IMG/VR virus record: IMGVR_UViG_3300031758_000356
Span: 1-31,289 of that record
DNA length: 31,289 nt
Reading direction: 5' to 3' (one strand)
Source of the DNA: a virus
This document shows, in pieces, positions 1-20,380 of this stretch. How positions within the stretch are numbered: position 1 is the first letter of the stretch; each line of letters begins with the position of its first letter. The notes beneath the pieces were generated by a model. It was not told the DNA's origin, did no database searches, and saw nothing but the letters and a program-made list of their open reading frames with translations. Made by a program: the position numbers and the translations under genes.

Positions 1-204
1 ACGGACTTCGCTGACGAAACGTGGTCCAGCGCCTCTTTCACGGCGCGCGGGGCGATGATCTACAACAGCACCCCGGCTCACACCTACACGAACCCCTCGG
101 TCGTTATCCTTGACTTCGGCTCGGATAAGACGGCTTCGGCTGGCGATTTCACCGTCGTGTTCCCAACGGCGGACGCGAGCAACGCAATCATTCGCATTGC
201 GTGA
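1..204 (+). CDS. Phage virion structural protein, C-terminal fragment
   Basis: The reading frame is open from base 1 and ends at TGA 202-204, giving the last 67 residues of a protein whose start lies outside the window. The visible part is rich in beta-prone and small residues (for example GAMIYN, VVILDFG, then DFTVVFPTADASNAIIRIA at the end). I recognise this ending as one common in phage virion or tail-associated proteins, without an assigned biochemical function. It sits directly upstream of the repeat protein and tail fibre on the same strand, with only 6 bases between genes, which supports membership of the tail/appendage operon. Nothing can be said about the N-terminus. Confidence 0.75.
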   Translation, partial: TDFADETWSSASFTARGAMIYNSTPAHTYTNPSVVILDFGSDKTASAGDFTVVFPTADASNAIIRIA

Positions 205-210
205 TGAGCC

Positions 211-882
211 GTGACCGATGCTGTCGTAGCCTTTGAAGGATGGTCGCGTTCTGCCGGATGGGGTGAACTCCCGTTCGGTGAGGGCGCGGTCGTCATCGGG
301 CTTGCGACGGGCGAGATCGGAAGTGTCACCGTAGCGGGAGGGGCTTCGGCTTCAGTTACGGGTGTCGAGGCGACGGCGGCTGTCGGTACGGTCGCCGTCG
401 TTCTTTTTGCAAACGTCTCGGTTACGGGAGTTGAGGGCACAGGCGCTGTTGGAAGCGTCAATGTAGACATCGGCGGAGACGTTTCGGTTCAGGGTGTCGC
501 TGGTACTGGCGAGGTCGGAACCGTTTCGGCCATTGTCAGCGTGACAGCAGCTGTCAGCGGCGTTGCTGGTACGGGTGAGGTCGGCACGGCGGACGCGACG
601 GGCACTGCGGTCGTGGGTGTGACAGGTGTCGCCGGTACTGGCGGGGTGGGCACCGCCACGACATACTTTGTGATCTACGTCCCGGTGACTGGCGTCTCCG
701 CAACGGCGTCTGTTGGGTCGGTCACTGTCTTTACAACAACGAACGTCTTTGTTGCAGGCGTTTCTGCAACAGGTTATGTTGGACAGGTCCTTGTCTGGGG
801 ACAGATTATCCCCAACCAGAACCCGAGTTGGAACGGAATATCGCCCGCCCAGTCGCCAAACTGGACCGAGATTGCCGCTTAG
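211..882 (+). CDS. Repeat-containing phage structural protein (VTGVxxTGxVGxV repeats)
   Basis: This 223-residue protein begins with GTG at 211, the first start codon in frame after the upstream stop, with no strong ribosome binding site visible. After a Trp/Gly-rich N-terminus (about residues 9-30) it is built of roughly seven imperfect repeats of 22-30 residues with the core VTGV-x-x-T-G-x-VG-x-V. A Trp/Pro/Asn-rich tail follows (residues 195-223, including NQNPSW and QSPNW). Such short beta-strand-turn repeats are typical of elongated virion fibres or surface decorations. No enzymatic motif is seen. The same repeat core recurs at the C-terminus of the protein at 8152-8445. Function as an appendage protein is inferred from composition and from the tail fibre 9 bases downstream. 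Confidence 0.7.
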   Translation: MTDAVVAFEGWSRSAGWGELPFGEGAVVIGLATGEIGSVTVAGGASASVTGVEATAAVGTVAVVLFANVSVTGVEGTGAVGSVNVDIGGDVSVQGVAGTGEVGTVSAIVSVTAAVSGVAGTGEVGTADATGTAVVGVTGVAGTGGVGTATTYFVIYVPVTGVSATASVGSVTVFTTTNVFVAGVSATGYVGQVLVWGQIIPNQNPSWNGISPAQSPNWTEIAA

Positions 883-3597: not shown

Positions 3598-4488
3598 ATG
3601 GGGCGCAATGTTCTTCAGAGCAGCAAAGTAAGCCCTTCCGGTCCAATCACTAAGCCATTCGGGCGCGGGAATGTGCAGTTTTTCTACTCCACGACAACGT
3701 GGACTATTCCGACTGGCGTGACGGCTGTTCGCGTTCGTGTGTGGGGTGGCGGGGCTAATTATTATTATTTAGCAGGCGCTGGTAAAAATCCTGCCGCAAC
3801 TAGAGCTGGGGCAGGCGGTGGTTTTGCTATGAAAGTAGTAACCGGGTTGACGCCCGGTGGAACGGTCACAGTCACTGTTCCTGCAATAGTATCGACAAAT
3901 GGCGCCGCTGGTGGGACTTGCAGCTTTGGCGCTCACGTTTCTGCTACAGGCGGCTCTGCATCATCTTCTAGTTCTACTGGTGGGGCGGGTTCTAGCGGAG
4001 ATGTGAATTATACCGGAGGCGCAACAAACTCGGATAACACAATAGCTGGTGCCGGCGGCGGCGGAGTTGCTAACCTTTTCGGAGACGGTGGGGACGGCAG
4101 CGTATCTGGCTCTGGCACTTCGAACCGTGCAACGAACAAGGCCAGCGGCGGCGGCGGACAGTATGGTGCTGCGGCTCCAAACTCGTCTGGCGGTTCTAGT
4201 TTTTTTGCAAGGGGAGGAGTGCAACCAAATACCGCTTATTGTGTATTACCGGAGTCCGGCAACCTAACAGGAAGTCTTGACCTTATTGGTGTTGGCGGCG
4301 GTGGCGCAGGAATGGTTACTGCTGGTGTTGGACCTCAAAAAGGGATTAATGGCGGCGGGGGCGGTGGGAGTACCGGCTCTGCCCCCGGCTCTGGTGGGTT
4401 CCCCGGCGGCGGCTGCGGAAGTGGCTCTTCTGTCACACCGACTAACGCTGCAATGGGCGCGGCTGGTCTTGTAATTGTGGAGTGGTGA
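3598..4488 (+). CDS. Glycine-rich tail fibre/adhesin-like protein
   Basis: This 296-residue protein starts at ATG 3598. It opens with about 35 residues of linker, then a beta-strand module (FFYSTTTWTIPTGVTAVRVRVWGGG, residues 23-48 region) typical of phage glycine-rich tip domains. The remainder is dominated by glycine runs (GGGG blocks near 135-165, 225-235 and 252-285) and ends in MGAAGLVIVEW, a closing strand that pairs with the opening strand in this family. Such poly-glycine domains act as receptor-binding tips in T-even-like adhesins and related fibre proteins; that role here is inferred. No transmembrane segment is present. Confidence 0.8.
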   Translation: MGRNVLQSSKVSPSGPITKPFGRGNVQFFYSTTTWTIPTGVTAVRVRVWGGGANYYYLAGAGKNPAATRAGAGGGFAMKVVTGLTPGGTVTVTVPAIVSTNGAAGGTCSFGAHVSATGGSASSSSSTGGAGSSGDVNYTGGATNSDNTIAGAGGGGVANLFGDGGDGSVSGSGTSNRATNKASGGGGQYGAAAPNSSGGSSFFARGGVQPNTAYCVLPESGNLTGSLDLIGVGGGGAGMVTAGVGPQKGINGGGGGGSTGSAPGSGGFPGGGCGSGSSVTPTNAAMGAAGLVIVEW

Positions 4489-4489
4489 G

Positions 4490-4717
4490 ATGAAGTACGC
4501 TCGTCTCTTTGAAAACACGGTTGGTGAAGTCTTTGTTCCCCTAAGTGGAGTGGACATCTCTGAGTGCTTTACCGCTGAAGTGTGTCAGATGTTTTCCGTC
4601 ATTCCTGACAATGTTGAGGTCGGCTGGATTAAGCTGCCCGATGGCAGCTTCGTTGCTCCTCCTGACCCCGCTCCAGAGACGGGGCCAATTCCTGTGACTG
4701 ATCTTGGTGCCCAATGA
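4490..4717 (+). CDS. Small hypothetical phage tail-region protein
   Basis: I chose ATG 4490, giving 75 residues (beginning MKYARLFENTVGEVF), because it lies one base after the fibre stop; the longer TTG start at 4475 would overlap the fibre for no evident reason. The end carries VGWIKLPDGSFVAPPDP, a motif I know from small proteins next to phage fibres, sometimes as a C-terminal part of fibre chaperones. No enzymatic features are seen. Its stop overlaps the next start (ATGA at 4714-4717), so it is translationally coupled to the cupin gene. Confidence 0.6.
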   Translation: MKYARLFENTVGEVFVPLSGVDISECFTAEVCQMFSVIPDNVEVGWIKLPDGSFVAPPDPAPETGPIPVTDLGAQ

Positions 4718-5085
4718 CGGACAAGCCAGAAATCCTGCTTAGTTGCGTTTCCTCTGTCTATGTTCGCCAGATGACCTTTCACAAGGCTGGCGACATAGAG
4801 CAGGGACACGCGCATAAGTTTGACCATCAAACTCTCGTCGCGAAGGGTTCTGTGAAGATAACGACGAATGGGAAGGAGAGTGTGTTTTCTGCTCCCCATA
4901 TCGTTTTTATCCGCAAAGAGCAGGTGCATGAGCTTGTGGCAATGGAGGACAACACTGTTTGCTACTGCATCCATGCACTTCGTGATGGCGATGATGTCTG
5001 CGACATCATTCCGCCAGACGCAATTCCGTTTGGTGCCGGTTCTGAGGAAGCCTTCAAGAAGGCAGATAGCCTGCTGTTCTCATAA
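4714..5085 (+). CDS. Cupin-fold protein
   Basis: This 123-residue protein starts at ATG 4714 in an ATGA overlap with the previous gene. Residues 26-45 match cupin motif 1: a glycine, H32-x-H34, H38 four residues on, and G45. H72 in the sequence KEQVHEL lies where the motif 2 histidine is expected. These residues would form the metal site of a small beta-barrel. Known cupins include dioxygenases, isomerases and non-enzymatic binding proteins, so the reaction cannot be named. It is followed by a TusA-like protein (stop and start share one base, TAATG) and a second non-haem iron family protein, suggesting a joint task. Confidence is high for the fold, low for the activity. Confidence 0.75.
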   Translation: MTDKPEILLSCVSSVYVRQMTFHKAGDIEQGHAHKFDHQTLVAKGSVKITTNGKESVFSAPHIVFIRKEQVHELVAMEDNTVCYCIHALRDGDDVCDIIPPDAIPFGAGSEEAFKKADSLLFS

Positions 5086-5306
5086 TGCTGGAGATCGACT
5101 GCATAGGGCTTTGCTGCCCAGAGCCGATAATGATCGCGCACAAAGCTGTGCGGTCATTTGACGTTGGTCAGCATATAAAGGTTCTAGCAACTGATCCTCT
5201 TGCATGTGAGGATTTTAAGAGTTTCTGCAAATCTATGGGGCATGAGTTTATAGGAGCCTCAAAGAATGGAGAGGTTTTTGAAATAATTATCAAGAAGGTT
5301 CGATAG
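5085..5306 (+). CDS. TusA/SirA-like sulfur-carrier protein
   Basis: This 73-residue protein starts at ATG 5085, whose A is the last base of the upstream TAA. It has the hallmark of the TusA/SirA/YedF family: a short strand, then C11-P12-E13-P14 (in GLCCPEPIM), the CPxP motif whose cysteine carries persulfide sulfur in TusA. The rest follows the family pattern: VGQHIKVLATDPLACEDF, then FCKSMGHEF and a final strand. Length matches the family (about 70-85). In bacteria these proteins relay sulfur to tRNA thiolation, molybdenum cofactor synthesis or dissimilatory sulfur oxidation. The phage partner is unknown. Its place between a cupin and an oxygenase inside a tail operon is unusual. A redox or regulatory role is an alternative. 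Confidence 0.85.
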   Translation: MLEIDCIGLCCPEPIMIAHKAVRSFDVGQHIKVLATDPLACEDFKSFCKSMGHEFIGASKNGEVFEIIIKKVR

Positions 5307-5903
5307 ATGGTTTTCATCATAAGAAACTTCTTATCGACTGATGATATGCGCGAATTAAACACCTTTGTGGACGAAGGTGTAAAACTTGGGTGGCTTGGCC
5401 CCGGTATAGATCGAGGCAGGTTTAATTATTCTGGACGATATACGTCTAGGCTTTATGGAGACAATTTTGAATATCCTGAAATCGTAGGTGATGTTTATAA
5501 GAGGATAACAGATGCTTTATCACTGCACGATCTGAAAAAGAGCGTGCTTGGAGGCGGCAAAAACGGTGTTGTCGTTAGTTGCACATTCCACGGCGGCGAT
5601 GTGTATGAACACAAAGACCCAAAAGAGGAAAACGGCTTAGAAGTTTTGAGGTGCAACATAATGACAAGAAGCCCGACAGATGGCGGTGTCTTGTTTGTTG
5701 ACGGAAAGCAGGTTGATCTAGGAGAAGGCGATCTTCACTGCTACCTAGCGTCGAATGTAAAGCATTATGTCACACCTGTATCTGGGCCGATCTCAAGGGT
5801 TCTTTGGATGTTTGGGTATCAGGTAAGTCAGCAAGACTGGGATAGAAAACTTGCTAATGTGTTGGTAAAGTTGAAACAGACTGATAAAGGGCAACCGCAA
5901 TGA
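5307..5903 (+). CDS. 2-oxoglutarate/Fe(II)-dependent oxygenase-like protein
   Basis: This 198-residue protein begins at ATG 5307 immediately after the TusA-like stop (TAGATG). It shows the 2OG-Fe(II) oxygenase facial triad: H102-x-D104 (in VYEHKDP) and H153 (in NVKHYVTPV), with R164 eleven residues later as the expected 2-oxoglutarate carboxylate binder (PISRVLWMFGY). GDLHCYLASNVKH before the distal histidine is typical of the PKHD/prolyl-hydroxylase-like branch found in many phages. The enzyme would hydroxylate an amino-acid side chain or small molecule; the substrate is unknown. Co-translation with cupin and TusA-like proteins suggests modification of a virion or host protein. All key residues are present, so it looks active. 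Confidence 0.8.
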   Translation: MVFIIRNFLSTDDMRELNTFVDEGVKLGWLGPGIDRGRFNYSGRYTSRLYGDNFEYPEIVGDVYKRITDALSLHDLKKSVLGGGKNGVVVSCTFHGGDVYEHKDPKEENGLEVLRCNIMTRSPTDGGVLFVDGKQVDLGEGDLHCYLASNVKHYVTPVSGPISRVLWMFGYQVSQQDWDRKLANVLVKLKQTDKGQPQ

Positions 5904-6037
5904 CGCCGCACATAGACGACACAGTAAAGCACGTTGCTGATGCCGCCTCGGTCGTCACAGTCATCGGAACGCTGGCGGTCGATGAAATACTGGATCGCGG
6001 AAGAGGTGCCGACGTGCACGCGCCCTACTTCCAGTGA
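5900..6037 (+). CDS. Small holin-like N-terminal fragment (possible remnant)
   Basis: A 45-residue frame starts at ATG 5900 in an ATGA overlap with the oxygenase stop. Its first 27 residues (including IDDTVKHVADAASVV and TVIGTL) resemble the start of small phage holin-like membrane proteins, but the expected hydrophobic continuation is missing. After residue 25 it turns into a charged sequence (VDEILDRGRG) and stops at 6035-6037. I read it as a truncated or rearranged relative of the holin-like gene at 6085, though it could be an intact small protein of unknown function. The start context (overlap with the upstream stop) argues that it is translated. Confidence 0.45.
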   Translation: MTPHIDDTVKHVADAASVVTVIGTLAVDEILDRGRGADVHAPYFQ

Positions 6038-6083
6038 TACTTGGGAAATGCCCTCGTGGCCTACTTCGTATAAGGTGCCGTGA
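5982..6083 (+). CDS. Possible tiny protein overlapping the holin-like fragment
   Basis: A 33-codon frame (MKYWIAEEVPTC..., ending in SYKVP) begins inside the 5900-6037 frame in a different reading phase and ends at TGA 6081-6083, one base before the next ATG at 6085. The close abutment to the next start and the unusual Trp/Pro/Thr composition hint that it is a real small gene or the displaced end of a rearranged one. The ribosome binding site is weak (GGCGG upstream). No family is recognised. Confidence 0.3.
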   Translation: MKYWIAEEVPTCTRPTSSDTWEMPSWPTSYKVP

Positions 6084-6084
6084 C

Positions 6085-6273
6085 ATGAACGACACGCGGA
6101 CAGTTGTGGACGGAGCCATCGCCGCTGGAGCCATCACGCTCCCTTGGTGGGTAGTTCACCTGTCCGGGTGGGTGTCGTTCTTCACCGTCCTTGGCGGTTT
6201 GATTCTGGTGTGCTTCCGAATTATGCTTGCCTATCGTGAGTTAAAGTCGAAAGACCAGAAACAAGATCAATGA
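6085..6273 (+). CDS. Holin-like small membrane protein
   Basis: ATG 6085 gives 62 residues; an upstream GTG at 6034 is possible but would overlap other frames. Residues 7-50 are almost wholly hydrophobic (GAIAAGAITLPWWVVHLSGW, then VSFFTVLGGLILVCFRIMLA) and could form one long or two short membrane segments separated by the HLSGW turn. The protein ends in a strongly charged tail (REL-KSKDQKQDQ). Small size, hydrophobic hairpin and charged C-terminus are typical of holins, which time lysis by permeabilising the inner membrane. No endolysin gene is visible next to it, so the assignment rests on topology alone; another small phage membrane protein is possible. Confidence 0.6.
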   Translation: MNDTRTVVDGAIAAGAITLPWWVVHLSGWVSFFTVLGGLILVCFRIMLAYRELKSKDQKQDQ

Positions 6274-6283
6274 GGAACGGTGG

Positions 6284-8152
6284 ATGTCGCTCCAGAGACT
6301 TCAGTTCCGCCCCGGTGTCATCCGGGATGTGACCGGGTACACGAACGAGGGCGGCTGGCGCGTCAGCAACCTCGTTCGTTTCCGCTTGGGGTTTCCGGAG
6401 TCCATCGGCGGTTGGGAGAAGTACGCTCCTCTCTACTCCTTCCTTGGAACCTGCCGATCCATGCTCAACTGGGTCGCGCTTGATGGCTCGAACTATCTCG
6501 CCTTCGGCACGAACCTGAAATACTACGTCGAGCTTGGCGGATATAACTACGACATCACGCCCATCCGCGCGACCGCGACTCTTAACAACCCGTTTGCGGC
6601 GACCAACGGCTTTCCAACGATCACCGTTACCGATGCCGCGCACGGCTGCGTGACAGGCGACTATGTGACGTTTAGCGGTGCGGTGTCGCTCGGCGGAAAC
6701 ATTACTGCGACGATCCTCAACAAAGAGTACTCTGTCACGGTTGTTGACGCGAACACCTATACGATTACGGCTTCTGTCAACGCCAACTCTTCTGATACCG
6801 GGAACGGCGGCGCATCAGTCACGGCAGCATATCAAATCAACATCGGTCTTGATAACGCTGTTTTAGGAAACGGCTGGGGCGCAGGCTATTGGGGACGTGA
6901 CACGTGGGGGTCTGGAACTACCCTTAACGTCACTCAGCAACTTCGTCTCTGGTCTCAGGACAACTACGGCGAAGACCTGATCTTCAACATTCGTGACGGA
7001 GACATCTATTACTGGGATGCTTCGACCGCGAACATCGTTCCACTGACCAGCGCCCAGCGCGGCGTGGCTCTTTCGTCCCTGTCCACGGACAGTGGAACAC
7101 CGACCATTGCCAGTCAGGTGTTGGTCTCGGATCGTGACAGGCACGTCATTGCGTTCGGGGCGAACTCCGGAGGGTCCACGGCCCAAGATCCTTTGTCCAT
7201 TCGGTTCTCCTCGCAGGAAGACCCGTTCACGTGGACGCCTGCTCCAACCAACACGGCTGGCGAGCTTCGTATTGGTTCGGGAACTCACATCGTTAAGGCT
7301 ATCGAGACTAAGCGTGAAATCATCGTGTTCACGGATGTCGCTGCGTACTCGATGCAGTTCATTGGTCCGCCGGATACGTTTGGTATTCAGCAGGTGGCGG
7401 CAGGCACGACGATCTGCGGATACAATAGCGCCGTCTCTGTTGATGACACGATCTTCTGGATGGGCATCAACACGTTCTACGTCTACTCCGGTCAGACGCA
7501 GGAGCTTGTTTGCCCGCTGTTGAACTACGTGTTCAACGACTTCAACAAGGACGAGGCGAACAAGGTGTTCGCCGCGTCTAACTCCGAGTTCAACGAAGTC
7601 ACGTGGTTCTATCCATCCGCCACATCCTCCGAGAACGATCTGTACGTGACGTACAATTACGTCGAGCGGGTCTGGACGTACGGATCTCTGGCTCGTACCG
7701 GCTGGATTGATCGCGGAACGCGAAACTACCCGACAGGGGCCGCGACAGACGGCTATCTCTACTATCACGAGAAGGGCACTGACGACGGCAGCACCGTGCC
7801 TCCGTCCCCGCTGAACGCCTATATCGAAAGCGCGCCTGTCGAGATCGGGGATGGGGATAAGTTCTCCTTCGTCCGCCGCGTGATCCCGGACGTGTCTTTC
7901 TATAACGCCACGAACAGCCCAACCGTGAACTTCACGTTGAAAACACAGAACTACCCCGGCTCGAACTACGAGAGCGGCTCTAACTCGTCTGTTGTCAGGA
8001 CGGCCACGGTCCCTGTGGATCAATACACGCAGGTGCTGGATGTCCGGCTGCGTGGGCGGTCTGTCATACTCAGGGTCGAGAGCAACAGGGTTGGGACTCG
8101 TTGGGGTCTGGGGTCGCCACGTCTTGAGACGCAAGTCGATGGGCGGCGCTGA
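6284..8152 (+). CDS. Virion protein, possibly head-tail stabilising (beta-propeller-like)
   Basis: This 622-residue protein starts at ATG 6284 behind GAGGAACGG. It opens with LQRLQFRPGVIRDVTGYTNEG then WRVSNLVRFRLGFPESIGGW, a start I know from abundant uncharacterised phage structural proteins. Residues 100-185 form an inserted module with AHGCVTGDYVTFSGA, a beta-sandwich seen in other virion proteins. Residues 190-480 contain repeated strand motifs (HVIAFGAN, REIIVFTDVAAYSMQFIG, DTIFWMG, NTFYVYSG), as in blade-like proteins resembling the P22 gp10 packaged-DNA stabilisation type. That comparison is tentative. It is coupled to the next gene by TGATG overlap. Structural role is likely, precise position in the particle unknown. 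Confidence 0.7.
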   Translation: MSLQRLQFRPGVIRDVTGYTNEGGWRVSNLVRFRLGFPESIGGWEKYAPLYSFLGTCRSMLNWVALDGSNYLAFGTNLKYYVELGGYNYDITPIRATATLNNPFAATNGFPTITVTDAAHGCVTGDYVTFSGAVSLGGNITATILNKEYSVTVVDANTYTITASVNANSSDTGNGGASVTAAYQINIGLDNAVLGNGWGAGYWGRDTWGSGTTLNVTQQLRLWSQDNYGEDLIFNIRDGDIYYWDASTANIVPLTSAQRGVALSSLSTDSGTPTIASQVLVSDRDRHVIAFGANSGGSTAQDPLSIRFSSQEDPFTWTPAPTNTAGELRIGSGTHIVKAIETKREIIVFTDVAAYSMQFIGPPDTFGIQQVAAGTTICGYNSAVSVDDTIFWMGINTFYVYSGQTQELVCPLLNYVFNDFNKDEANKVFAASNSEFNEVTWFYPSATSSENDLYVTYNYVERVWTYGSLARTGWIDRGTRNYPTGAATDGYLYYHEKGTDDGSTVPPSPLNAYIESAPVEIGDGDKFSFVRRVIPDVSFYNATNSPTVNFTLKTQNYPGSNYESGSNSSVVRTATVPVDQYTQVLDVRLRGRSVILRVESNRVGTRWGLGSPRLETQVDGRR

Positions 8153-13597: not shown

Positions 13598-16500
13598 ATG
13601 CCGGTCTACGAGGTTCAAGCGCCTGATGGCACGGTCTTGCAGATTGAAGGACCGGAGGGCGCTTCTCAGGAGTCCATCCTGTCATACGCTAAAAATGTAG
13701 CGTACCCGGCCTTCCTTGCCGAAAAGCAAAAGCCCGAGCCCCAGCAATCTGTTCTCCGGCAGGTTGCTGACGTCCCCCTAAAGATTGGTGCGGGCGCAGT
13801 CTCTGGCGTTCGCATGATTGCTGACGCCTTTGGTGCGGGCTCTGCTGTATCAGAAAACCTGAAGGGTGCTGAGGGCTACATCGAGAGCCTTCTCTCCGCA
13901 CAGTCCAAAAAAGATTCCGCCGAGATTGCTCGCATCATGGACGATGCGAAAGACAAGGGCGTCTACGATCAGGTCGTGGCAGCGGTCAACGCGCTGAAGG
14001 TGGCCCCGATTGATCTTGTCGCGCAGGGTCTCGGCACGATGGCCCCGACTATTATCGGTGGTCTTGCTCTTAGGGTTGGCGCGCCCGCAGTCGGCGTTTT
14101 GATGGGTGCTGGCACGATCAAGGGGGCCATCTATGACGAGACCAAGAAGGTCTTGATGGAGAAGGGGGTATCCCCCGGCCTCGCTGACGAAATCGCGCAG
14201 GAAGCGCAGTCGTACGATGGCAAGAACATCGACCAGATTCTTATTGGTGCAGGTCTTGGTGTTGCTGACGCCTTGACAGGAGCCAGCCGTATCCTGACAA
14301 ACGTCGCTAGGCAGGCCGCAGGAAAGGCCGTGGCCGAGGGCGTAGTAAAGGAGATCGGCAGAAACCTCCCGTCTCGACTTGTACGTGGTGCGGCGGGAGA
14401 AGCTCCGCTCGAAGCTCTGCAAGGCGGTCAAGAACAGCTGGCACAAAACCTCGCTATTCAGCGCGAGGGGTTTGAGCGTCCTACCTTCCAAGGTGTCGCC
14501 GGTCAGGCGGCGCTGGAAGGGTTGGTTGGCGGCATCACGGGCGGCGCAGCGCGCGGAGCCTTTGGCCGTCGCCCCGGAGAGCTTCCCCCTGTGCTTCCAC
14601 CCGTCAGGCCCGGAGAGGAGCCATCCCCCGCTCCGGCAGTTCCCCCTGCTACTCCGGGTCTGACACCCCCGTCGCCTCCCGGAACCCCTCCCGGCGCCGC
14701 GGCTGCGGCGGGGGCACTTCAGACTCCGGCGTCTATTCAGAATGTCCTGAGCGTCACGGGCGGCGCTGTGCCCGCAACGCTTCAAGGCTCCGTGCAGTTG
14801 GCCCAACAGCCGACGCTCCCGGCCCCCGGACCAACGACCATTCAAATCCCGACGCCTCCGCCGATCTCGGTGCCGGGGACGCTGGGCACTACGCTCGCCC
14901 CGACATCTGTCACGGGCGGGCTTGAGCCGACCATTCGTCCGCTGGAGCCTGTCACCACTCCGCCCGCTCTCCAGCTTCCGACCCTTCCGAGGGATCTCGC
15001 TGGCGCGAAGCCCCGCTTCAGTCGTATTCCGCTGTCATTTGCGAGCGACATCGACAAGGCGTTGTACATAACCGCGCAGCAAACAAAGTCTCCGCGAGAC
15101 GCTGACTACCGCAAGTGGCTCACGAGCCTCGGCTACAATCAGTCGGACATTACGCGCCTTGGCAATCAGGTCCGCAACCGTATCAAAAACTTAGTCGGAC
15201 AGGCTCCGGGTGCAGAGGTCGTTCCAATCCCGACCTTTGCGGCGCTTCCGGCTGCCGGTGCTGCCCGTACGCGTGCTGCTGCTCCCCTTCTTGCTGTTCC
15301 TCCGGCGGCTGCTCCGACGCCTGCTCCGGCTCCCACTCCCGCCGTCTCGCCTCTTGCTGCGGCACTTACTCCTGTCCCAGCGCCAGCGGTGGCTCCCCCT
15401 GCGCCCGCAGCCGCTCCCGCTCCGACACCTTCCCGTGCACTTGCTCTGGCGTTTCAGAGGACGCCGGAGCAGCATCGCTTCAAGTTTGTGAAGACGGGCG
15501 TGCAGTCCATCCCCGAGATCGAGACGGCCCCGCTAATTGTCGAGCTTTCGTCTGTCATCTCTTCCGAGGTGCCGGGTTACGACCCGGCATTGCAGCCGCG
15601 TGACAGAACGAGGACTGGATCGGATATTCAGATTGCCGACATCATCTCGAAGTTTGATCCCCAACTTCTGACCTTTGACCTTAGCACCAAGCGTGGTGCG
15701 CCCATCGTCAATGAGAACATGAATGTTGAGAGCGGCAACGGGCGCATCATGGCCCTGCGTCGCATCTACGAATCACAGCCTGCTCTGGCGGAAGCCTACA
15801 AGGCCGAACTTACCCGCCTTGGGTTTGACATTTCAGGCATGAGCAATCCCGTTCTCATTCAACGTCGCGGGACGCCCCTCACGCCGGAGGAGACGCAAGC
15901 GTACGTCGGAGCTGCGAACACGCCCGACGTTATGCAGATGAGCGCGGCTGAACTGGCGAAAGAGGACGCCAAGAAGATCACTGTCGAGATGCTCGACCGC
16001 ATCCCAGAGGGTCGTGACTACACCTCCCAACGGTTCGTTGTTGATTTTCTGCGGAAACTCCCGGCGAACGAGCTTAACACCATGCTTAATGCAAAGGGTG
16101 AGTTAAGCCCGGACGGCGAGCGCCGCATCCGAAACGCCGTATTTGCAAAGGCTTTTGGTGACTCGCAGGCTATTGCGCGCATTGCGGAGTCCACCGACGA
16201 CAACATCCGGTCGATCTCGAACGCCCTGATCGACAACCTCGTCAACTTCGCGAAGCTGCGTCTGTCCATCGAGAATGGTCGGACCGACCCCGGTTTCTCA
16301 ACCGACCCGCTCATCGACGCCATCAACCGCATCTCTCAGATGCGTAACACCGGCACGACGCTCGAAAACTATCTGTCGCAAGTGGATGCCTTTAATCCCA
16401 TTCCGCCGATGACAGAGAAGTTCATGCGCCTCTTCTACAGCGAGAGGGCGCGGGCGCTTGGTCGGGCGAAGATCTCTGACGGTCTTGGCTTCTATGCACG

Positions 16501-19500
16501 TGAAGCTTTGAAGGTCACTCCTCCGGATGAAGGTCTTGGTCTCGGTCTGGGCCTTCCCGAAATCACGCCGATGAGTCTGATCGACGCGGCGATCAAGCGC
16601 GCACAAGGCGTGGTCGAAGGTCAGGGGACCATGGTCCTTCAACCTCCGGCTCCGGCGCAAGCTCCGATCCCGACCCCGGCATCTCCGCCTGTCACGGTGG
16701 AACCTGTCACCACAAATGTGGTTACGCCCGCGGCAGCGCCTCTCGCCATCACTGTCACAAGCCGGAAGCGCATCAACCTCGGACCTGTTGAGGGGACGAT
16801 CACGCGCATCACATTCTCTGACGGCACGGCTGTCGATATTCAGCGCATGGATAGCGCAAGCACGATGGGTCTGCCGGGATGGCATGACATTAACAAGAGT
16901 GTGACAGGAAACTCCTACCTTGGTGACACCGAGAAGGACGCAATCGCACGTCTGCTCGAACAGAAGAACGCGCAGAAGTTTGTGCCGAAGGCTGCTCCTG
17001 TGGGCGTGCTTCCCACACCGGAGCCCACGGACCTTGGACCTTCGAACAAGCCGGTTATCGTCGGTGATGTGCCGCAGTCTGTGAAGGACAGCACAAGGAT
17101 TACATATCTCGGCGGGGCGAAAGAGTTCTTCGATAGAGAACTCCCCGGCATTGACGGGGTTATTCTGGAAACGGCTTACCGCCTGTATCCGGGGACGGAT
17201 ATTAGTTTTGGGTTAGAGGGCATAACTGGTTACGGAAACGCACGGGTATCTGGCGGCGAAGGCAGAAGAGTCGTCATACGTGTCAGCCCCTCAAACCTGA
17301 AGATGACCTTCGGCAAGGCTGGTGGAGACTACCGGACCAAAATACTGCACACTGTGTTCCACGAAATGTCTCATCCGATTGAGTATTTCTGGATCAACAA
17401 CGCTCCTCGTGACACGCAGATTGCAATTCTTGAGCAGTTCAAAAAAGAACGCAGTGGAACTGCGGCACAGAGGGCTGGTCTTATACGCTATGTCCTAGAG
17501 CAGCAGTCTGACCGTAGCGATCTCGACACGTTCAAGCAGAGGCTATTAAAGACTTTTGGTCTTACGGAGCAAGAGTTCAATAAGCTTCTTGGGACAAAGC
17601 GCGACGTTGGTGCTGGGTCCACGGACATTTATCGTGAGGGTCTTAGCACCAAGTACTACAGGAGCTACTCCGAGTGGGTGGCTGAGAAGGGCGCGCAATG
17701 GCTATCGAAGGAGCTTGAAGGCAGGCTCCCGAAGAATGTTTTCGAGAAGTTCCAAAAGGAAATCCTCGGCAAGCTTCGCACGATCTATGAGACGGTGGCT
17801 AGAGTTCTTGGTATCCCGACAAGCACGGGAGCTTTTGAGAAGCTTTTGTCCGATGTTTGGGGGACCAAGACAGTTACTCCGCGTGGGTTAGTTGATGGGG
17901 TCGTCTCTAAAAGGGAAAAGACAGACCGTATCTCCGATGCGGGGATGGTCGCTTACGAAGAAACAGTTGATGGGAACAACGGCCCGCTGAACAGGCTTCC
18001 GGGCGCTGACACCGCACGCCTGAACTCCGAGAGATTTACGAAGCTAACCAACAAGGTCCGCGAGTTCTTCGACCCCCGCTTCACCATTGACAGCTACCCG
18101 ATCCTGTCGGAGTTCCGAAACCTGCTGTTCGGCAAGATCGGGATGTCTACGCAGCGCGCCCGCGATCTTTCCAACACGATCTCGAACGGTACGCCGGAGG
18201 TCCAGACTCAGGTCTATAATTACCTGACGACGCGAGATGCTAACCCGAGCATGATTGCGGACGAGAAGATCCGCGCAGCTGCCGTTCAGGTGAAACAGGA
18301 GATCAACCGCACCGCACAGGAGATGGTTGATAAAGGTCTTCTGTCACAGGAAAGCATGGACAAGTACTACGACAGATACCTGCCTCGTATGTACCTGTAC
18401 TACGAAGCCACTGGTCGCGGCATCAAGAGCCCGAACATGGGCATCAGCGCGCGTGAGTATCTGAAGCTTCGTGATGAGCAGCTTTCTGAGGAAGAACGCA
18501 AGCTGCTTGGCGAAATCAAAAACCCTGCCTTCCTGTCCTACGTCGCCCTGTCTCGTCCCCAAAAGGACTTGGCGATGATGGAGTACTTCCAGCAGGTCAG
18601 GGATCAAACGGGCGTCAACTGGATTGCGCCAAACTCCCTCGTCGAGTTCAACGGCGAGATGGTGACGCCTTACTGGCTTATGTCAGAGGCGAACATCATG
18701 GATGAGATCGCCACGCTGACAGAGCAGACTGACCCGGAAGCCGCGAAGATGATGCGTGATCGCGCCGACGAGATGCGTCGTGTTGCGGCTCCGGCGATCT
18801 CCCGCGAGCAGGCCATCCAGATCCCGGAAACGTACCGGCGTCTTCCTGACAGCCCGCGTTATGGCGCGCTTCGTGGGGCCATCATTCAGAAAGGCATCTA
18901 CGACGACATCGTTGGGACAATGGTGGCTATTCCGATCAGCGATAAGCCGTTCGTCCAAGCCCTCCTTGGCGACGAGCAGAGTTTGGTCGTAAAAGCGAAC
19001 CAGATATGGAAGATGTCGAAGATCACGTTGAACGTGCCTTCGCAAATCCGTAACGCCATCTCCAACGCCATCGCCATGAACGTGTTTGGCGGTATCCCGC
19101 TGCACCGCATCGCCCCCCTTCTCGCCCGCGCGTCCAAGGAAGTCTCGCAAGACGGACAGTACTGGCAGGAGGCGCAGAAGTACGGCATCACTGGCGGCAC
19201 CATGTCGGCTGCGGAAATGATTAAGATCCGCACGGAACTGGAACAGTATCTCCGTAAGGGTGGTGGGGACGGTATCTTCGGAGCGTTCGCTGCTGCGCGT
19301 ATCGCGGCAGGCAAGGCAATCGGTGCAGCGTCTGACACGTATCAGGCCGTCGAAGTCCGCTTCAAGATGGCGATGTTTATCCACGGTCGTGAGAAGGGCC
19401 TGACCCCCTCGCAGGCCGTCGATGCGGCGAACGACGCGCTGTTTGACTACACGCTTGTGAACCCGAACATTCGCTGGCTGCGTAATTCACCTATTGGCCT

Positions 19501-20380
19501 GCCGTTTGTCACCTACTATTACAAGGCGCTGCCGAAGCTGATCGAGACGGCGTACAAGCATCCGATGCGATTTGCTCCGTACGTCGCCCTGATGTACGCC
19601 ATCCCGCAGATGACGATGCTTGCCCTCGACATTGACGATGATGACTACGAGTCGCTTCGCAAGTCCCTGCCGGAGTACATCCGTAACAAGGGCTCGCTGT
19701 TCATCCTTCCCTACAAGGATGAGAATGGTCGCTGGCAGTACATCGACACCAGCTACTTCTTCCCGTGGGCCGCGTTCACCGATCCGATTGTTCAGGCGAT
19801 CTATCGTCAGGACCCTGCGGGTGGGCTGAAGGAAGCCGCCAAGCTCATCACGCCCTCTGGTCCCGTTGTTACGGCGCTCGCGGGTATCACCACGGGCCGC
19901 GATCCTTTCACTGACAAGGAGATCGTCGATCCGAGGCAGACGCCCCAGAACAAGGCGCTCGCTCTCGTGTCGTACGTCTGGAACCAAGCCATGCCGTCGA
20001 TGCTGGCGATTGATATGGTCAACCCGCAGAACGCATCGGGCGCTATCCCGCGCCTGTATAACGACGCGTTTGGCTCGGGAACGGGTCTCGACAAACGCGG
20101 CCAGCCGAAGCCGGAGTTTCTTGCTGACGCGGCTCGCCTGTTCGGCGCAAACATCAGCCCGCTCGAACCCGCAACAGCGCGCGCCCTAAACATCAACCAT
20201 CAGCTTGCAAAGATCCGCGCGTCCGAGAGCCTCCGCTCGCAGGTCGCCAAGGACCAGAGCCTCACGCCCGCAGCGCGCCAGCGTGAGATCGCAAGCCTGA
20301 ACGAGAAAATCCGCGAGGACTACAAGAAGCTGCAAGAGTACGCGACCGAGACAAGCCGAGCTACAGCTTTGAAGAAGTAA
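13598..20380 (+). CDS. Giant polyvalent protein (ParB/DdrB-like and metallopeptidase-like domains)
   Basis: This 2260-residue protein starts at ATG 13598. Residues 1-45 form the small VYEVQAPDGTVLQIEGPEG module seen at the start of phage internal proteins. Residues 135-330 are helical and partly hydrophobic. Pro/Ala-rich linkers lie at about 325-470 and 550-620. Residues ~625-960 resemble the DdrB-like ParB domain of phage polyvalent proteins, including ESGNGR (G713-R716). Residues ~1180-1440 hold an HExxH motif (H1255-E1256, H1259 in HEMSHPIEYF) with candidate third ligand E1359 or E1363. The C-terminal ~780 residues resemble large polyvalent-protein-associated helical domains (LPD38-like). 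Such proteins are injected with phage DNA to act on host defences or proteins; that role is inferred. Confidence 0.75.
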   Translation: MPVYEVQAPDGTVLQIEGPEGASQESILSYAKNVAYPAFLAEKQKPEPQQSVLRQVADVPLKIGAGAVSGVRMIADAFGAGSAVSENLKGAEGYIESLLSAQSKKDSAEIARIMDDAKDKGVYDQVVAAVNALKVAPIDLVAQGLGTMAPTIIGGLALRVGAPAVGVLMGAGTIKGAIYDETKKVLMEKGVSPGLADEIAQEAQSYDGKNIDQILIGAGLGVADALTGASRILTNVARQAAGKAVAEGVVKEIGRNLPSRLVRGAAGEAPLEALQGGQEQLAQNLAIQREGFERPTFQGVAGQAALEGLVGGITGGAARGAFGRRPGELPPVLPPVRPGEEPSPAPAVPPATPGLTPPSPPGTPPGAAAAAGALQTPASIQNVLSVTGGAVPATLQGSVQLAQQPTLPAPGPTTIQIPTPPPISVPGTLGTTLAPTSVTGGLEPTIRPLEPVTTPPALQLPTLPRDLAGAKPRFSRIPLSFASDIDKALYITAQQTKSPRDADYRKWLTSLGYNQSDITRLGNQVRNRIKNLVGQAPGAEVVPIPTFAALPAAGAARTRAAAPLLAVPPAAAPTPAPAPTPAVSPLAAALTPVPAPAVAPPAPAAAPAPTPSRALALAFQRTPEQHRFKFVKTGVQSIPEIETAPLIVELSSVISSEVPGYDPALQPRDRTRTGSDIQIADIISKFDPQLLTFDLSTKRGAPIVNENMNVESGNGRIMALRRIYESQPALAEAYKAELTRLGFDISGMSNPVLIQRRGTPLTPEETQAYVGAANTPDVMQMSAAELAKEDAKKITVEMLDRIPEGRDYTSQRFVVDFLRKLPANELNTMLNAKGELSPDGERRIRNAVFAKAFGDSQAIARIAESTDDNIRSISNALIDNLVNFAKLRLSIENGRTDPGFSTDPLIDAINRISQMRNTGTTLENYLSQVDAFNPIPPMTEKFMRLFYSERARALGRAKISDGLGFYAREALKVTPPDEGLGLGLGLPEITPMSLIDAAIKRAQGVVEGQGTMVLQPPAPAQAPIPTPASPPVTVEPVTTNVVTPAAAPLAITVTSRKRINLGPVEGTITRITFSDGTAVDIQRMDSASTMGLPGWHDINKSVTGNSYLGDTEKDAIARLLEQKNAQKFVPKAAPVGVLPTPEPTDLGPSNKPVIVGDVPQSVKDSTRITYLGGAKEFFDRELPGIDGVILETAYRLYPGTDISFGLEGITGYGNARVSGGEGRRVVIRVSPSNLKMTFGKAGGDYRTKILHTVFHEMSHPIEYFWINNAPRDTQIAILEQFKKERSGTAAQRAGLIRYVLEQQSDRSDLDTFKQRLLKTFGLTEQEFNKLLGTKRDVGAGSTDIYREGLSTKYYRSYSEWVAEKGAQWLSKELEGRLPKNVFEKFQKEILGKLRTIYETVARVLGIPTSTGAFEKLLSDVWGTKTVTPRGLVDGVVSKREKTDRISDAGMVAYEETVDGNNGPLNRLPGADTARLNSERFTKLTNKVREFFDPRFTIDSYPILSEFRNLLFGKIGMSTQRARDLSNTISNGTPEVQTQVYNYLTTRDANPSMIADEKIRAAAVQVKQEINRTAQEMVDKGLLSQESMDKYYDRYLPRMYLYYEATGRGIKSPNMGISAREYLKLRDEQLSEEERKLLGEIKNPAFLSYVALSRPQKDLAMMEYFQQVRDQTGVNWIAPNSLVEFNGEMVTPYWLMSEANIMDEIATLTEQTDPEAAKMMRDRADEMRRVAAPAISREQAIQIPETYRRLPDSPRYGALRGAIIQKGIYDDIVGTMVAIPISDKPFVQALLGDEQSLVVKANQIWKMSKITLNVPSQIRNAISNAIAMNVFGGIPLHRIAPLLARASKEVSQDGQYWQEAQKYGITGGTMSAAEMIKIRTELEQYLRKGGGDGIFGAFAAARIAAGKAIGAASDTYQAVEVRFKMAMFIHGREKGLTPSQAVDAANDALFDYTLVNPNIRWLRNSPIGLPFVTYYYKALPKLIETAYKHPMRFAPYVALMYAIPQMTMLALDIDDDDYESLRKSLPEYIRNKGSLFILPYKDENGRWQYIDTSYFFPWAAFTDPIVQAIYRQDPAGGLKEAAKLITPSGPVVTALAGITTGRDPFTDKEIVDPRQTPQNKALALVSYVWNQAMPSMLAIDMVNPQNASGAIPRLYNDAFGSGTGLDKRGQPKPEFLADAARLFGANISPLEPATARALNINHQLAKIRASESLRSQVAKDQSLTPAARQREIASLNEKIREDYKKLQEYATETSRATALKK

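Follow-up and report, generated by a model that had tools for sequence, protein, structure and literature searches.

According to the literature, phages of natural waters very often carry 2OG-Fe(II) oxygenases, usually encoded close to the tail genes, and the function of these enzymes has not been studied. The window described here, the whole stretch of 31,289 nucleotides that was analyzed (IMG/VR record IMGVR_UViG_3300031758_000356, positions 1 to 31,289), poses the question in a compact form: a cupin gene (CUP), a gene for a TusA-like sulfur carrier (TUS) and a gene for an oxygenase-fold protein (OXY) follow one another beside a tail fibre gene. Do the three belong together, and on what would their products act?

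Locus and phage background

The three genes are intact and lie back to back at positions 4714 to 5903 (Table 1), as a preliminary description of this DNA had stated, and the junctions that it gave were confirmed from the open reading frames (ORFs) and the sequence: ATGA at 4714 between the end of the preceding ORF and the start of CUP, TAATG at 5083 to 5087 between CUP and TUS, and TAGATG at 5304 to 5309 between TUS and OXY. The short ORF that overlaps the OXY stop codon is possibly the end of this coupled operon. No promoter or terminator consensus exceeding chance was found within CUP-TUS-OXY.

Table 1 Features of the cassette and its flanks (positions in the window)
Feature	Position	Strand	Basis
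Glycine-rich tail fibre protein, candidate substrate, 5' of the cassette	3598..4488	+	PHROG tail fiber assembly, 6.1e-9
Small protein (80 aa), candidate substrate, directly 5' of CUP	4475..4717	+	ORF
CUP, phage cupin (123 aa), 4-His metal site H32/H34/H38/H72	4714..5085	+	
TUS, TusA-like sulfur carrier (73 aa), C11-P-E-P14	5085..5306	+	PF01206, 1.8e-21
OXY, 2OG-Fe(II) oxygenase-fold protein (198 aa), H102-x-D104...H153...R164	5307..5903	+	Family without a Pfam model
ORF (45 aa), ATGA overlap with the OXY stop at 5900-5903	5900..6037	+	Read from sequence
Small membrane-type ORF	6085..6273	+	ORF list: 6034-6273 from GTG; in-frame ATG at 6085
Virion (tail stabilization) protein, closes the cassette slot	6284..8152	+	phrog_3287, 8.7e-70

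The placement of the trio in a tail fibre region also held. The cassette lies 3' of the fibre gene and its small downstream or assembly gene and 5' of lysis or stabilization genes. The fibre protein stayed under the Pfam cut-off for Gly_rich_2 (0.025), and a counterpart occupies the equivalent position in two other contigs (L015 and L012). The small protein that directly precedes CUP, with zero family matches in Pfam, PHROG, and NCBIfam, is 82% identical in L012 and 56% identical in L015; in L033, the upstream gene encodes a Tfa-type tail fiber assembly protein (phrog_4912, 8.6e-19). Downstream, the protein that closes the slot shares 42% identity with the stabilization protein of phage DSL-LC04, and the intervening genes, previously called holin-like, found no family support in Pfam, PHROG, or NCBIfam.

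The small protein ends in the C-terminal tail ETGPIPVTDLGAQ, and similar IPVxD-like tails precede CUP in many other contigs, including some without OXY. Since the tail is found where OXY is missing (L014 and L016), it does not track OXY, and ETGPIPVTDLGAQ/IPVxD was rejected as an OXY-specific substrate.

TUS and OXY are AT-rich relative to the window (GC content, 43.7% each; CUP, 50%; window, 57.2%), which fits recent acquisition. In a near-identical phage contig (L004, the contig of L031, L105, L109, and L154), a 73-bp deletion at about window positions 5247 to 5320 cuts TUS off at residue 54 and takes out the annotated OXY start; TUS and OXY may therefore be dispensable, unless the deletion is an assembly fault.

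A 58.7-kb viral contig contains most or all of the window (100% identity over the compared overlap). In its replication genes the window resembles pelagiphage HTVC023P and lake phage DSL-LC04, at 53 to 55% for the DNA polymerase (HTVC023P, 54%), and phrog_3287 and a DNA ejection protein are encoded among its structural genes. Hints of the host are indirect, namely the HTVC023P-like polymerase, the presence of CUP in Burkholderiales prophage-like loci, and the GC content of 57%.

Gene products

CUP scored below the cut-off of Pfam Cupin_2 (E value, 0.002; 18.2 bits versus 27.2 bits). Its AlphaFold model (pLDDT, 90) matches the small cupins KdgF and TM1459 in fold (TM score, about 0.6), although identity to them is 16 to 26% and CUP, unlike them, is nearly exclusive to phages. 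The features that define the cupin superfamily, a small beta-barrel (here in a predicted model), two cupin motifs and His ligands, were all found. H32, H34, H38, and H72 are invariant in 22/22 aligned sequences (motif GHxHxFDH...G), and their spacing is identical to that of H52, H54, H58, and H92 in TM1459, the four Mn ligands of that protein (PMC5031596). Searches of 50,697 annotated phage records with CUP (blastn and tblastn) returned nothing significant, only weak cupins (E values, 0.1 to 3). The GTDB collection gave three matches: two Burkholderiales prophage-like loci beside fibre genes, both without OXY and TUS, and one weak, doubtful match.

TUS belongs to the TusA family by profile (76.2 bits against the PF01206 cut-off of 28.6) and matches the E. 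coli TusA structures 1dcj and 3lvj (1.2e-12). C11, P12, P14, D37, and D43, that is, the CPxP cysteine with its neighbors and the nearby aspartates, are invariant in 5/5 aligned sequences. With E. coli TusA, TUS shares a 35% identity class, the CPxP motif, and equivalents of C19, D45, and D51; it differs in its cupin-linked context. Of four IscS-docking residues of E. coli TusA (M24, R27, R31, and F58; PMC2854127), TUS keeps M24 and R31, but R27 and F58, both needed for binding of IscS, are replaced by His and Ser. TUS also falls under the cut-off of the NCBIfam TusA equivalog for tRNA thiolation (NF001423; 68 versus 78 bits). The presumed housekeeping TusA of Acinetobacter likewise has His at both positions 27 and 58, so cupin-linked TusA may still dock to a host desulfurase; the replacements speak neither for nor against use of host IscS or the suggested upkeep of the host sulfur relay.

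The window copy of OXY has zero matches in Pfam, PHROG, or NCBIfam, and Pfam likewise returned no match for four OXY relatives from viral contigs. Its AlphaFold model (pLDDT, 85) has a double-stranded beta-helix fold that Foldseek assigns to PHD2/P4H with a probability of 1.00. PHD2 and P. putida PPHD are the best solved folds (Foldseek E value, about 1e-7; TM score, 0.60 to 0.65) and have the same HxD...H...R arrangement, but identity is 13 to 20% and a sequence-level match is absent even by profile. H102, D104, H153, and R164, the Fe(II) triad and the basic 2OG residue, are invariant in 17/17 divergent members. From the fold and these residues only, we infer that OXY may be catalytic and may use 2OG. 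All of the active-site residues cited for the three proteins in the preliminary description are thus present and conserved among relatives.

In the 50,697 phage records, OXY (blastn and tblastn) found only phage S-SCSM1 and one weak match. S-SCSM1 ORF241 is a distant relative (28% identity; OXY profile, 1.9e-28; no Pfam match) and one of four tandem 2OG genes adjoining tail fibre genes. Gp65, gp66, and gp71 of HTVC023P are 2OG-Fe(II) oxygenases in the tail fibre region and so share the slot and the superfamily of OXY, but the tail-region oxygenases of HTVC023P and DSL-LC04 do not match the OXY profile. Unlike OXY, the fibre-region oxygenases of these cyanophages and pelagiphages have no adjoining cupin or TusA.

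Selection on CUP and OXY looks purifying, judged from sequence comparisons of CUP with the L012 copy (dN, 0; dS, 0.25; 102 codons) and of OXY with the L033 copy (dN, 0.22; dS, 2.0, near saturation).

Distribution and linkage in viral contigs

Viral contigs were scanned with all three proteins (alignment or protein scans), which yielded, among others, 74 OXY and 20 CUP loci; L111 was added. The 73 non-redundant loci comprised CUP-OXY (39), OXY-CUP (8), CUP (10), OXY (5), CUP-TUS-OXY (4), and CUP-CUP-OXY (3), with one locus each of CUP-CUP, CUP-OXY-CUP, CUP-OXY-TUS, and CUP-TUS. CUP stood within about 1 kb of OXY, in either order, in 42/46 distinct flanked OXY loci, and the two were spaced by 30 bp or less in 45/55 pairs. 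Conversely, OXY was present at only 4/13 flanked CUP-query loci, so CUP and OXY are not obligate partners.

The distances of CUP and OXY correlate (Mantel r, 0.40; permutation maximum, 0.18), but their phylogenies are often discordant and many pairs are mosaic. Between L038 and L043, for example, CUP is 37% and OXY 76% identical, and between the window and L033, CUP is 31% and OXY 70% identical. The best argument that the two genes are linked in function is that they recombine separately and yet stay adjacent; divergent CUP and OXY copies have repeatedly been paired anew, which argues against simple hitch-hiking.

The three-gene order, for which the preliminary description had suggested a search of viral genomes, recurs as CUP-TUS-OXY in L015/L032, L033, and L034 and as CUP-OXY-TUS in L086, which, with the window, gives five lineages with the trio; the genes do co-occur, and neither C11 of TUS nor the OXY triad is lost, so the refuting condition named in that description did not apply. 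The further proposal of a single sulfur-transfer system of three genes was not supported: CUP-OXY or OXY-CUP without TUS makes up 47/73 loci (39 + 8), CUP-TUS without OXY occurs in two lineages, and an obligate CUP-TUS-OXY trio is rejected by this neighbor survey. CUP and OXY are a recurrent pair, and TUS is optional yet specific. CUP is the anchor of the cassette, OXY its usual neighbor, and one distinctive type of TusA its occasional third gene.

The background of viral TusA was obtained from two DNA pattern scans across all viral contigs, the second of which required His at the residue equivalent to R27 of E. coli TusA. With the first pattern, 41/46 stretches encode TusA by profile; six of the 41 are CUP-linked contigs (three of the six being the window's own phage), and both CUP and OXY are missing from the remaining stretches, about 35. 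The second pattern gave 14 stretches, and every one that encodes TusA also has CUP. These represent the lineages of the window, L034, L086, L033, L111, and L183, to which L015 was added via another pattern. In all 7/7 lineages found with this His27 type, TusA thus lies beside CUP, five of them with OXY and two (L111 and L183) with a GT2-TPR glycosyltransferase after CUP-TUS in place of OXY. Among aligned sequences, His27 occurs in 6/6 cupin-linked TusA copies, which have Ser or Thr at the F58 position, and in 0/20 sampled unlinked viral TusA sequences, which are of a Lys27 type. Given both scans, with the His27 type always accompanied by CUP, TusA is unlikely to be a chance passenger. Repeated independent recruitment was also considered: the tree needs three label changes, but the AU test (p value, 0.30) does not reject one common origin of the cupin-linked copies, and repeated recruitment is not claimed.

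Phage-borne sulfur carriers like TUS are known from the TusA, TusE, and DsrC auxiliary genes in phages of sulfur oxidizers, and TusA is among the common proteins of contigs of such phages (PMC8190135). The viral TusA found here without CUP is, unlike TUS, of the Lys27 type. The TusA matches in INPHARED lie in large or unannotated assembly contigs and look like bacterial DNA inside phage records.

Further genes recur at the cassette. The GT2-TPR glycosyltransferase (phrog_13126, 3e-98) weakly matches the flagellin glycosyltransferase GmaR. A role as an S-type glycosyltransferase was discarded for it, as a PDB search returned TPR repeats and weak GmaR and no thiol glycosyltransferase. A sulfotransferase (PF03567, 3e-10) or GT2-TPR follows OXY in L007, L008, and L065 and follows CUP or CUP-TUS in L016, L024, L111, and L183. 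A second, classical 2OG-Fe(II) oxygenase lies between or beside CUP and OXY in L058, L059, L061, L066 (PF13640, 3e-15), L088, and L093.

No published description of the CUP-OXY pair or of the CUP-TUS-OXY trio was found in the open-licence literature. As a combination the genes appear undescribed, and so do OXY as a family and the TusA type linked to the cupin; the superfamilies themselves are already known in phages.

Proposed function

We tentatively prefer the reading, at somewhat less than an even chance, that CUP, TUS, and OXY together make up a modification cassette that is modular, late and linked to the tail fibre, is carried by uncultured phages of mainly aquatic type, and probably acts on a fibre protein. 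The cassette genes and the fibre would be made from one late transcript. With Fe(II), O2, and 2-oxoglutarate, OXY would hydroxylate a side chain in the fibre or in a fibre-associated protein, and the new hydroxyl could accept a sugar or a sulfate in phages with a glycosyltransferase or sulfotransferase. CUP, via its metal site, may act on or stabilize the substrate of OXY. TusA might bring persulfide sulfur from a cysteine desulfurase, either to a step of this modification or to the thiolation of host tRNA; the step that it serves is the weakest part of the model.

This cassette model draws on the CUP-OXY linkage (42/46), the re-pairing, the His27 specificity of TusA and the fibre-side position. 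It also draws on the likeness of the OXY fold to two protein hydroxylases, PHD2 and P. putida P4H, on the other 2OG-Fe(II) oxygenases in the tail fibre regions of the related phages HTVC023P and DSL-LC04, and on the alternative partners (GT2-TPR, sulfotransferase and second 2OG oxygenase). Against it count the low GC content of TUS and OXY, the CUP loci without OXY, and the L004 deletion; moreover, the tail fibre position is a common landing site also for morons unrelated to the fibre. It is a long shot that TusA-bearing cassettes modify the receptor-binding apparatus by a persulfide-dependent pathway, in which TusA would deliver sulfane sulfur to a fibre-associated protein, at a cysteine or a small thiol, and CUP and OXY would oxidize or hydroxylate this group to give a sulfur- and oxygen-modified adhesin.

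The target could instead lie in the host. The OXY fold also matches the EF-Tu prolyl hydroxylase structures 4iw3 and 4j25, P. putida P4H hydroxylates EF-Tu (PMC7864055), and efficient lambda infection needs host tusA, tusE, and mnmA (PMC2900299). With the C19, D45, and D51 equivalents kept in TUS, these points would fit a tuning of host translation, in which OXY would hydroxylate a translation protein and TusA would support 2-thiouridine at U34 of tRNA Lys, Glu, and Gln via host TusBCDE and MnmA, for faster late virion protein synthesis, with CUP as an accessory metal protein. We regard this as unlikely: most CUP-OXY loci lack TusA, CUP-TUS also occurs without OXY, the IscS-docking R27 and F58 of E. 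coli are not kept in TUS, and the constant site beside fibre genes is left unexplained.

Small molecules are the substrates of many 2OG oxygenases, and the closest solved folds of CUP are KdgF, which belongs to uronate metabolism, and TM1459. Phage 2OG oxygenases are, moreover, usually treated as metabolic genes (PMC3037559, PMC9602691). CUP and OXY might thus convert a host or cell-surface metabolite (a sugar, sulfur compound or amino acid), with TusA sulfur in some phages, and the glycosyltransferase and sulfotransferase neighbors would suit such a role. The neighbor survey, however, found no recurring further pathway enzyme beside CUP-OXY, and bacterial genomes are almost devoid of CUP (three GTDB matches), which leaves this auxiliary metabolism with the same low probability as translation tuning.

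CUP might also be a virion component itself, a metal-stabilized fibre tip or adaptor that OXY modifies or matures, with TUS an unrelated passenger. It is always in the fibre region and weakly matches phrog_12032, "short tail fiber protein" (4.1e-7 for the window copy; 9e-9 for L111), and metal-binding HxH motifs occur in phage tips. We think this improbable, as the complete, canonical 4-His cupin site is like that of the Mn enzyme TM1459, a CUP-fibre fusion was not seen, tandem CUP-CUP-OXY copies exist, and CUP lies near the TusA gene in 7/7 His27-type lineages, which speaks against TUS as a pure passenger. Three functionally unlinked morons in one tolerant insertion spot would account for TUS and OXY having a lower GC content than the phage, for the loci that have each gene without the other two, and for the unrelated 2OG oxygenases in tail fibre regions of related phages, but are very improbable given the 42/46 linkage, the divergent CUP and OXY alleles re-paired within 30 bp in both orders, and the difference at position 27 between CUP-linked TusA and all sampled unlinked viral TusA.

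CUP and a new oxygenase family, re-assembled repeatedly beside fibre genes, offer a tractable handle of two to three small proteins, of which natural variants with and without each partner exist. The adjacent fibre and the small protein preceding CUP are the obvious candidate sites for modified residues. A fibre target would make the cassette a means of decorating phage adhesins enzymatically, and a host target would make it a phage route for altering translation or metabolism.

Minor observations

A small zinc-ribbon ORF (CPxC...CxxC) lies directly 3' of CUP or TUS in L069, L075, L076, and L086, and the fibre-lysis region of DSL-LC04 also has a zinc-ribbon gene. Elsewhere in the window, positions 13598 to 20380 form one ORF of 2260 aa. 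Many long antisense ORFs run over the GC-rich coding regions (minus strand, window positions 84 to 470 and others) and are probably due to chance.
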